DNA of 64,000 bases, from the NCBI RefSeq assembly GCF_014217805.1, contig NZ_CP055156.1:186001-250000 (forward strand), written 5' to 3'. The stretch's first letter is position 1; each line of letters opens with the position of its first letter. This document shows, one piece after another, positions 28,921 through 31,315 of the stretch. The notes under the pieces are model-generated. The model saw nothing but the letters and a program-made list of their open reading frames with translations. It did no database searches and had not been told where the DNA came from. The DNA is from Adhaeribacter swui. Lineage in GTDB: Bacteria; Bacteroidota; Bacteroidia; Cytophagales; Hymenobacteraceae. A program made the translations under genes and the position numbers.

Positions 28921-30141
28921 ATGAAAAATACTTTAACGCAGGAAACTACTTTGCCACAACAAGTGGTGCAGCAAACTGTTTTTCCTATTTTATTCGCCAT
29001 CAGCTTTTCGCATTTGCTCAACGATACCATGCAATCGCTGATTCCGGCTATTTATCCTTTGCTTAAAACTTCGTTCCGGCTCGATTTTGCGCAGATTGGT
29101 TTAATTACTTTAACCAACCAGTTAACCGCTTCTATTTTGCAGCCTTTTGTAGGGCTGTATACCGATAAAAAACCCCAGCCTTATGCCCTGGTAATCGGTA
29201 TGGGCTTTACCCTGATTGGCTTGCTGCTTTTATCGCAGGTTCATAGTTTTCCTTTTATTTTATTGTCTGTAGGTTTGGTGGGCGTAGGTTCTTCTATTTT
29301 TCACCCGGAAGCTTCGCGCATGGCCCATTTGGCGTCTGGTGGCCGACGCGGCATGGCGCAATCGTTGTTTCAGTTGGGCGGTAACGCAGGCAGTTCCTTA
29401 GGCCCAATTCTGGCAGCTTTAATTATTGTGCCTTACGGCCAGACCAAACTGGCCTGGTTCTCGTTAGCGGCTTTATTGGCCATGTTGGTATTAGGTTGGG
29501 TAGGCACCTGGCAAAGAAACCACACAGCAAAAATCAAACAGAAAATAGTGGCTGCCCCAGCCGAAGTAGTGCAAACCCTTTCGCGGCACCGGGTTATTTT
29601 CTCATTGGGTATTTTATTGATTTTAATTTTCTCCAAGCACGTGTACCTGGCCAGCATGACGAGTTATTTTACGTTTTACCTGATCGATAAATTTCACGTG
29701 TCGGTGCAAAGCTCGCAACTGTATTTATTTGTGTTTTTGTTTTCGGTGGCGGCTGGTACGTTTATCGGCGGCCCCATCGGAGACCGCTTTGGGCGCAAAT
29801 ACGTGATTTGGGGTTCTATTTTGGGCGTTGCGCCGTTTACCCTGCTCCTACCCTACGCCAATTTATTCTGGACCGGTGTGCTGATTGTGATGATTGGGGT
29901 AATACTTTCATCAGCTTTTTCGGCTATTCTGGTGTACGCCCAGGAACTGGTACCGGGCAAAATTGGGTTAATTGCCGGTTTATTCTTTGGTTTTGCCTTT
30001 GGTATTGCGGGTATTGGCTCCGCGGTTTTGGGCGAAGTAGCCGACCGTACCAGCATTAACTTTGTTTTTAAAATTTGTTCGTTTTTGCCTTTAATCGGCT
30101 TATTAACGTTTTTCTTACCTAATGTGGGAAAGCAGAAATAA
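28921..30141 (+). CDS. MFS exporter similar to fosmidomycin resistance protein Fsr
   Basis: 406 residues with about 12 membrane segments. The N-terminal signature FAISFSHLLNDTMQSLIPAIYPLLKTSF and the segment GVGSSIFHPEASRMAHLASGGRRGMAQSLFQLGGNAGSSLGP are those of the Fsr subfamily of major facilitator proteins. These are proton-driven exporters of fosmidomycin and related compounds in E. coli. The MFS loop motif GDRFGRK appears in the second half (GGPIGDRFGRKY). Substrate assignment is by family only. Its own promoter is recognisable upstream. Confidence 0.85.
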   Translation: MKNTLTQETTLPQQVVQQTVFPILFAISFSHLLNDTMQSLIPAIYPLLKTSFRLDFAQIGLITLTNQLTASILQPFVGLYTDKKPQPYALVIGMGFTLIGLLLLSQVHSFPFILLSVGLVGVGSSIFHPEASRMAHLASGGRRGMAQSLFQLGGNAGSSLGPILAALIIVPYGQTKLAWFSLAALLAMLVLGWVGTWQRNHTAKIKQKIVAAPAEVVQTLSRHRVIFSLGILLILIFSKHVYLASMTSYFTFYLIDKFHVSVQSSQLYLFVFLFSVAAGTFIGGPIGDRFGRKYVIWGSILGVAPFTLLLPYANLFWTGVLIVMIGVILSSAFSAILVYAQELVPGKIGLIAGLFFGFAFGIAGIGSAVLGEVADRTSINFVFKICSFLPLIGLLTFFLPNVGKQK

Positions 30142-30192: not shown

Positions 30193-30726
30193 TTAACTGT
30201 AAAATTTATCTTGCTCCCACTTATAAGGATTATGGATAATGTATACCGAAATGGTGTGGTACGCTTGTTCGTTCCGGATAATGTGTTCGTAGTAATTGCG
30301 TTGCCAAACAATTACCCCAGCACGTAATAAATTTATTTGTTTGGTTACTGCCGATTTATATCCCCGTACCATCGCCCCAATGGTATTGGACGGTGTTCGT
30401 AGGGGCGAATCGCATTCGCCCTTATCCGGATTCAAAAGGGGCGAATGCGATTCGCCCTTACGGATGAGGAGGATGCCGTGCAGGTGATTGGGCATAATTA
30501 CAAAGACATCTAAAGCAACGTTAGGCCGAATCTGAGGCGTTTTCAGCCAATTTTCATAGGCAATTTGCCCGAAGGGATTCAACTTCATTTCACCGCCCTT
30601 AACTTCCCCAAACAGATGCTCGCGGTGATGGGTGCAAAGGGTAATAAAATACGCACCGGCTTGACTGTAATCATAGCCTTTCAGCCGGATAGAGCGGCGG
30701 TGATGGATAAGTGGACTATAGGCCAT
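30193..30726 (-). CDS. REP-associated tyrosine transposase (RAYT, IS200-like fold) with REP-like DNA inside
   Basis: 177 residues of the Y1-transposase family that processes REP hairpins. The motifs are complete: RLKGYDYSQAGAYFITLCTHHR, the HUH pair in MPNHLHGILLI, and WQRNYYEHIIRNEQAY with the catalytic Tyr, then IIHNPYKWEQDKFY. Between HLHGILLI and TIGAMVRGYKSAVTKQI, the frame reads through two palindromes (30402-30424 and 30438-30461). They encode KGESHSPLLNPDKGECDSPL and keep the frame open. No terminal repeats or target duplications like an IS are seen, as expected of RAYTs, which are single-copy and vertically inherited. It lies downstream of the DinB-like gene on the same strand. Confidence 0.88.
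   Translation of the reverse strand: MAYSPLIHHRRSIRLKGYDYSQAGAYFITLCTHHREHLFGEVKGGEMKLNPFGQIAYENWLKTPQIRPNVALDVFVIMPNHLHGILLIRKGESHSPLLNPDKGECDSPLRTPSNTIGAMVRGYKSAVTKQINLLRAGVIVWQRNYYEHIIRNEQAYHTISVYIIHNPYKWEQDKFYS
30402..30424. repeat. REP-like hairpin R1 (inside the RAYT gene)
   Basis: GGGGCGAATCGCATTCGCCCTTA: 8-bp arms GGGCGAAT and ATTCGCCC with a 3-base loop and trailing TTA. It is the mirror-loop partner of R2, 13 bases away. Confidence 0.8.
30438..30461. repeat. REP-like hairpin R2 (inside the RAYT gene)
   Basis: GGGGCGAATGCG then ATTCGCCCTTAC: the same arms as R1, with loop GCG instead of CGC. R1 and R2 are in the same orientation and could also pair with each other. Confidence 0.8.
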
Positions 30727-30758: not shown

Positions 30759-30782
30759 GGGGCGTATGGCATACGCCCTTAC
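30759..30782. repeat. REP-like hairpin R3 at the DinB gene 3' end
   Basis: GGGGCGTATGGC then ATACGCCCTTAC: the same layout as R1/R2 with changed arms (GGGCGTAT/ATACGCCC). The TTA in its trailing end is the complement of the TAA stop of the DinB-like gene (30779-30781), so the element overlaps that gene's last codons. It lies 33 bases upstream of the RAYT start codon. Confidence 0.8.
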
Positions 30783-31315
30783 CGAAACGCTTCCGGCTCT
30801 TTTCCTAAAGCAATTCGGATATGTCCCAGGTGATGTGCCACGTGCCAGGTAGCCATGTACAGCATTTGCTTTAAACTTAAATGTAATTTCCGGACAGCGT
30901 GGTAATAGGTTTTAGCCAGCGTTTGCTCGTCCAGCGTTTCGAACAAGGCAATGTACCGGAAATTTACTCCTCTGAAAATAAGTAAAGAACTATCAATGGG
31001 CAGTTGGGTAGAATCGGGTAAAGCTGCCCATTCATCCATCCGGATTATGGTTATTTCGTAATTTTCTTCCGTGAGGGCTTTTTTCAGGCGCAGGAAGTTG
31101 GTTAGATGAATGTCGGCTACGTGGTGCACCAATTGCCGCACCGTCCAGGCACCCGGCCGGTACGTATTATTTAAATCTGTTTCGGTGAGGTTAGTTACCA
31201 GTTGTTCGTACCGTTCCGGGGCACTTTCTAAATAACATAAGAAACCGCTTATTTCGGCAGCGGTATAATCGGGTTGCGGTTGAAACCGGCCTACCGGGTA
31301 TTGTACATGTTCCAT
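30779..31315 (-). CDS. DinB-like YfiT/BstA-type putative bacillithiol transferase
   Basis: 178 residues. YPVGRFQPQPDYT at the start, then YRPGAWTVRQLVHHVADIHLTNFLRLK, and near the end WHVAHHLGHIRIAL. These are the signature and metal-binding histidines of the YfiT subfamily of DinB four-helix proteins, which include bacillithiol S-transferases that detoxify electrophiles. A divalent metal bound by three His is expected. Bacillithiol production by Bacteroidota is known, but the substrate here is unknown. The stop codon is formed by REP hairpin R3. It is probably transcribed toward the RAYT gene. Confidence 0.87.
   Translation of the reverse strand: MEHVQYPVGRFQPQPDYTAAEISGFLCYLESAPERYEQLVTNLTETDLNNTYRPGAWTVRQLVHHVADIHLTNFLRLKKALTEENYEITIIRMDEWAALPDSTQLPIDSSLLIFRGVNFRYIALFETLDEQTLAKTYYHAVRKLHLSLKQMLYMATWHVAHHLGHIRIALGKEPEAFR

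Follow-up and report, generated by a model that had tools for sequence, protein, structure and literature searches.

Among the described transposases of repetitive extragenic palindromic (REP) sequences, those of TnpAREP subclass 2.4 are the closest to the gene treated here, a REP-associated tyrosine transposase (RAYT, or TnpAREP) gene of Adhaeribacter swui with two REP hairpins inside its own reading frame. The gene lies in a 64,000-nt stretch of NZ_CP055156.1 (GCF_014217805.1; forward-strand positions 186,001-250,000), called the window throughout. According to the parts of Quentin et al. 2018 (PMC6006769) used here, genes of subclass 2.4 contain REPs in frame, generally between HuH and Y, a trait unique to this subclass, which corresponds to RAYT group 4 of Bertels et al. 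2017. The same parts describe a variable insertion between β3 (the HUH strand) and αC, a small 8-amino acid insertion at the end of αB, no conserved C-terminal extension beyond the core, and a flanking REP; three G-C pairs form the base of the REP stems, and the foot reads GT[AG]G. Members of the subclass are frequent in Cyanobacteria and Bacteroidetes and occur sporadically in other groups, and tolerance in a peripheral loop is proposed as the reason why in-gene REPs may do little harm.

Palindromes in frame are also known from other genes. The portions of Di Nocera et al. 2013 (PMC3733652) considered here report GTAG REPs, or inverted dimers of them, in frame within other genes (uvrA, recB and DnaE2 are the hosts named there), where they encode extra residues, and REP termini that furnish stop codons to neighbouring genes; Rickettsia palindromic elements, discussed in the same portions, likewise lie in frame in protein genes. 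In groups 2 and 3 TnpAREPs, the GTAG motif and the palindrome contribute to binding or cleavage to differing degrees, as stated in the text of PMC8266576 that we draw on.

The window RAYT resembles subclass 2.4 in its in-frame REPs, its insertion between the HUH strand and αC, its GT[AG]G-type feet, its three basal G-C pairs and its flanking REP. Nothing categorical sets it apart; the differences are that its two internal REPs form an inverted pair, that two of three feet read GTAA, and that very few REPs are found elsewhere. As with the intragenic GTAG REPs, those of the window are in frame, add residues and supply a neighbour's stop codon, but the host gene is here the REP's own transposase. 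In contrast to Rickettsia palindromic elements, the window hairpins have GTAG-type feet, are associated with a RAYT and match flanking copies, all of which points to REPs. A REPIN, in the sense of Bertels and Rainey in 2011, reportedly consists of two inverted REPs with a spacer and is tied to a RAYT; the window pair has this arrangement and this position, as do pairs in relatives, but it belongs to no large dispersed population, one further pair being present in the genome.

The idea that the arrangement is unique and undescribed was rejected, since in-gene REPs are reported in the parts of PMC6006769 cited above. For the same reason the locus is less surprising than a first-pass annotation of the window had claimed: those parts present in-frame REPs as a unique feature of subclass 2.4. 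A literature search that covered mostly open-access journal papers recognised no later work on in-gene REPs. Our additions are the match to flanking copies across loci, the confinement of the hairpins to the RAYT, and their excess conservation with compensation, and these may already be published. By the features tested, the locus is probably a REPtron with a subclass 2.4 (RAYT group 4) transposase, in which a REPIN-like pair of its own family has lodged in frame in a tolerant loop and is kept like the flanking REPs.

A REPIN-like unit within a RAYT gene

The gene and its hairpins are as follows.

30193-30726, minus strand: RAYT (TnpAREP) gene, 177 amino acids; the HUH residues are H81 and H83, and Y162 is the candidate catalytic Tyr.
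30398-30462, no strand assigned: REPIN-like unit within the RAYT frame, made up of two mutually inverted REP hairpins, whose feet (GTAG and GTAA) point outward, and a 17-nt spacer.
30439-30457, minus strand: internal hairpin H1, first in coding order, GGGCGAAT-CGC-ATTCGCCC; GTAA foot at 30458-30461; encodes KGESHSP (residues 90-96).
30403-30421, minus strand: internal hairpin H2, second in coding order, GGGCGAAT-GCG-ATTCGCCC; encodes KGECDSP (residues 102-108).
30760-30778, minus strand: upstream hairpin, GGGCGTAT-GCC-ATACGCCC, 33 nt ahead of the RAYT ATG; GTAA foot at 30779-30782.

The 177-amino acid protein matched the NCBIfam model for REP-associated tyrosine transposases, NF047646 (E 3.3e-18; 66 bits, under the curated cut-off of 80), and a Pfam scan of it gave no match. 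H81, H83 and Y162 are invariant across the 16 rows of alignment A1. A 43-row profile of the window and 42 relatives matched the REP-bound RAYT structure 4er8 (4er8_A; E 3.6e-6), and in this match Y162 faces chain residue 115, which we take to be the catalytic residue. Alignment A3, like the input to structure prediction, was built from the window together with 42 of the 80 loci described in the next section. The AlphaFold model had a mean predicted local distance difference test score (pLDDT) of 84.6 and found its best fold match in the PDB in 4er8 as well (E 6e-8, template modelling score 0.57, 22% identity); the protein is thus predicted to have a Y1 HUH transposase fold related to TnpAREP. 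In the model, a coil at residues 89-111 is flanked by the HUH strand (81-88) and a helix (116-134), with pLDDT of 50-56 across residues 91-110. The columns of this insertion are variable in A1, and 10 residues follow N166-P167 at the C-terminus. A protein search of the window's genome revealed no second RAYT; the other match was the opposite strand of the same place.

The pattern GGGGCGWATNNNATWCGCCCTTAY has three exact occurrences, 30402-30425, 30438-30461 and 30759-30782. A search of both strands that allowed three mismatches gave 6 matches versus 0.01 expected, and the maximum in 100 shuffles was 1. H1 and H2 have perfect 8-bp stems and 3-nt loops, both in frame, and are mutually inverted, their 24-nt arms being 96% complementary and 17 nt apart; H2 is followed by CTAC, which is GTAG on the plus strand at 30399-30402. 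The stems of the window hairpins start with GGG/CCC, that is, with three G-C pairs at the base, and of the three feet one is GTAG and two are GTAA, one base off the strict GT[AG]G. The pair encodes residues 89-109, within the low-confidence coil. When folded as a single strand, 30395-30466 forms one long stem, at -46.2 kcal/mol (z -9.43) for RNA and at -28.4 (z -8.65) for DNA. The internal hairpins constitute a REPIN-like unit.

We rejected, and give practically no credence to, the explanation that this is a palindrome arisen by chance or a coding repeat of low complexity, unrelated to REPs: two such hairpins appeared in none of 2000 shuffled versions of the 171-nt loop, and the internal hairpins match the flanking ones. 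Chance origin is excluded. The first-pass annotation had likewise judged chance unlikely, and its description of the gene agrees with these results on the following points: a RAYT (as borne out by NF047646 and the 4er8 profile and fold matches), two REP-like hairpins with 8-bp arms and 3-base loops in an open frame (exact pattern matches within the gene), and an insert in the loop after the HUH motif (the modelled coil). The inversion of the two copies and the upstream third copy had escaped it.

Internal and flanking hairpins in relatives

Eighty further loci with named records, from many phyla, are the best 80 of at least 435 confirmed relatives and so represent the nearest part of the family. 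Of 121 loci loaded, 13 were excluded: L004, for which see below, and 12 that repeated, or were fragments of, places represented by another locus. Among the remaining 108, twelve could not be read as an intact frame from HUH to Tyr (L012, L027-L031, L044, L063, L070, L073, L088 and L093), and one duplicate (L074) was removed, which left 95 distinct intact relatives.

The arrangement is not confined to the window: 66 of these 95 relatives also have a hairpin in the loop that separates HUH from the conserved Trp. After dinucleotide shuffling of each loop (20 rounds), 3.75 of 95 had one on average, and never more than 7. Hairpin density was 4.54 per kb in the HUH-Trp loop. The other two parts of the core had densities of 0.42 and 0.29, the 300-nt flanks 2.70 and 2.42, and DNA beyond the flanks 0.37. 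When a stem of at least 8 was required, 64 relatives had a loop hairpin and the two other core parts had 3 and 0; with a stem of 9, a loop hairpin was present in 41. The result held in both sources of relatives (13 of 22 and 53 of 73), and 18 of the 95 had at least two internal hairpins. Of the 85 internal hairpins, 75 are adjoined by a foot of the form GT[AG]G or C[TC]AC. Outside the 95, internal hairpins are present in L012, a decayed gene, and in L027-L029.

The internal hairpins match those beside the gene. At the 45 loci with both kinds, the mean best identity was 0.899 within a locus versus 0.534 between loci, a within-locus mean that none of 500 permutations attained, and in 34 of them the internal hairpin was at least 0.9 identical to its own flanks.

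The 95 cores were placed in a quick tree, in which 51 of 92 inner branches are open, and the trait was mapped on it. It requires 17 changes (6 forced by starred branches) versus 25.1 in shuffles; the internal hairpin is clustered on the tree, yet it was gained or lost repeatedly, and gain and loss are not separable by this count. In the part of the tree that includes the window, L008 (genome G033; 63% identical to the window RAYT) has an intact open reading frame with no internal hairpin and three flanking ones, so the insert is dispensable for persistence of the gene. The window, G005, G001 and L008 form one group (support 96), which joins L036-L038 and L043, these last four all with internal hairpins (support 90).

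The protein could conceivably make use of the insert, the encoded loop aiding DNA binding or contact with a partner. The loop is often present and the reading phase of the 3′ arm is biased (phase 1, 58; phase 2, 21; phase 0, 6 of the 85 internal hairpins; phase 1 to phase 0, 28 to 1 for 3-nt-loop hairpins, in rows that are not independent). The TAG stop in the foot accounts for the bias only in part. We regard such a use as improbable.

In-frame hairpins were also seen at other sites. In L027, L028, L029 and L037 they follow the FGE strand, and in L010 and L011 they lie before or near the likely start, in open frame. Tandem short peptides occur in or beside the inserts of L022, L027, L049, L108, L109 and L115, as if hairpin halves or their neighbours had been amplified.

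Hairpin DNA in the nearest clade

To follow the hairpin bases more closely, the window was compared with a small, hand-picked sample of its nearest relatives, namely G005, G001, G003, L036, L037 and L038. Of the 38 bases of H1 and H2, 38, 35, 36, 35, 35 and 32, respectively, are identical to the window's (84-100%), versus 62-82% identity in two coding stretches of the same relatives and 4-11 of 17 positions in the spacer, which is variable in length. Within the clade 110 of 112 stem cells are paired and two are broken; when one arm was slid as a control, 35-62 of 112 were paired. Three compensating double stem changes were found, one in G001 and two in L038, and they change the encoded residues. 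The first-pass annotation had named relatives with the same residues and no hairpin symmetry as evidence that would count against it; this was not borne out, the relatives retaining the symmetry while the residues change. At the hairpin positions L008 agrees with the window in 9 of 19 and 6 of 17; having no hairpin there, it was omitted from the stem-pair count.

This conservation goes beyond what plain tolerance of an insert would give; the hairpins are either renewed from flanking REPs or themselves selected. In the second case the internal REPIN would be a cis element under selection at the DNA or RNA level, through which the RAYT might regulate itself by binding its own gene or mRNA there, or a donor or landing site for persistence of the REPtron. 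The identity of H1 and H2 above that of coding DNA and spacer, the paired stems with residue-altering double changes in two sequences, and the single long stem of the pair as RNA all point this way. However, conversion with flanking REPs predicts equal conservation, the compensating changes are only three and stand beside two broken pairs, and L008, for all its grouping with the window's genus, keeps an intact gene and three flanking hairpins in spite of lacking the internal one. Furthermore, in the decayed RAYT of G003 (L012, G003:C2:2207623-2208090), which has internal stops, both internal stems are perfect; this speaks against a role in expressing active protein and favours renewal or recent decay. 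A cis role is, in our view, possible but doubtful.

Genomic distribution and origin of the insert

The strict hairpin, defined as the 19-nt core, has five copies in the 6.2-Mb genome of the window, three at the RAYT and two in one inverted intergenic pair. The genome-wide search suggested by the first-pass annotation thus detects the family elsewhere, but just as this pair; neither a dispersed, many-copy REP or REPIN population nor any other high-copy REP family was found in this genome, and the latter candidate was rejected. With the foot included and 3 mismatches, a genome-wide search gave three further matches, no excess over the reversed-pattern control (5 and 1).

The search set comprised 59 genomes, the window's own included, 26 of which have a match to the window RAYT. 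Six contain the strict hairpin. Five of these (G000, G001, G003, G005 and G033) have a RAYT match of at least 63% identity over at least 133 of 177 residues, and the sixth, G017, has one stray pair with feet outward. All 8 copies in G001, G003, G005 and G033 lie in the RAYT or at most about 120 nt from it. In G037, where the RAYT match (65-69%) covers 85 residues only, in two short pieces, there is no strict hairpin. Across the 59 genomes the hairpin family is almost restricted to its own RAYT. Locus L004 (G000:C3:5522894-5522942) is a stray inverted pair with feet inward and no RAYT, 3′ of a presumably sugar-kinase-like gene and the terminator-like hairpin of that gene.

Two genes border the RAYT in the window.

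28921-30141, plus strand: MFS transporter, 406 amino acids (Pfam PF07690, E 7.8e-48).
30779-31315, minus strand: DinB_2 superfamily protein, 178 amino acids (Pfam PF12867, E 1e-16).

The DinB-like gene ends in a TAA stop codon that sits within the GTAA foot of the upstream hairpin. In stretches of about 10 kb from the five genomes with the RAYT, only G003 and G005 have common neighbours, and a fixed genomic place for the gene was rejected on this ground; in G003, G005 and G006 the MFS and DinB-like genes have other genes between them, at the place that the RAYT occupies in the window. The differing neighbours suggest that the RAYT changed place or was acquired separately, its hairpins along with it. 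The genes upstream of the RAYT in G001 (C17, L171) match at 90-93% genes in the DinB-like/MFS interval of G006 (L168), where the MFS neighbour (G006:C1:951594-952804) matches as two overlapping pieces in different frames and is perhaps a broken copy.

We return to the reading of a REPIN-like pair lodged in a tolerant loop. Most likely, the RAYT's own single-strand cut-and-join chemistry, or recombination with flanking REPs, copied a REP or an inverted pair into the gene; this RAYT presumably cleaves these hairpins. Only in-frame events in this loop would have survived, the insert encoding a flexible loop, tolerated by the protein, that connects the HUH strand to the helix after it. Conversion or renewed insertion would then keep internal and flanking copies alike, so that the hairpin outlasts the surrounding sequence.

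Several observations weigh against this reading. No internal hairpin is present in 29 of the 95 relatives, 22 of which have flanking ones. Internal-to-flank identity is below 0.9 in 11 of the 45 loci, the window's own (0.84) among them, and in 13 of the 45 the own flank falls outside the best 5% of ranks. The near confinement of the family to the RAYT gives little sign of active spreading. Finally, conservation above that of the coding core would go beyond plain tolerance unless conversion or renewed insertion is frequent.

On balance, what the first-pass annotation observed is confirmed, and its interpretation is partly supported, with cleavage of these hairpins by the protein and a use of the loop as its conjectural parts. 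Passive insertion into a tolerant loop, in step with the flanking REPs, accounts for most of the observations, and a cis role is possible. We would propose only tentatively that the in-frame REP pair is a selected cis element, in which case a subclass 2.4 gene and its substrate would form one self-contained unit and the hairpin, not the peptide, would be what is preserved. The window clade offers a tractable case, with the same two hairpins, whose DNA is conserved above the coding core and whose stems show a few compensating changes, with a single relative that lacks the internal pair and with hardly any other copies in the genome, and it makes directly testable whether in-gene REPs are debris or a cis-acting part of the transposase gene.
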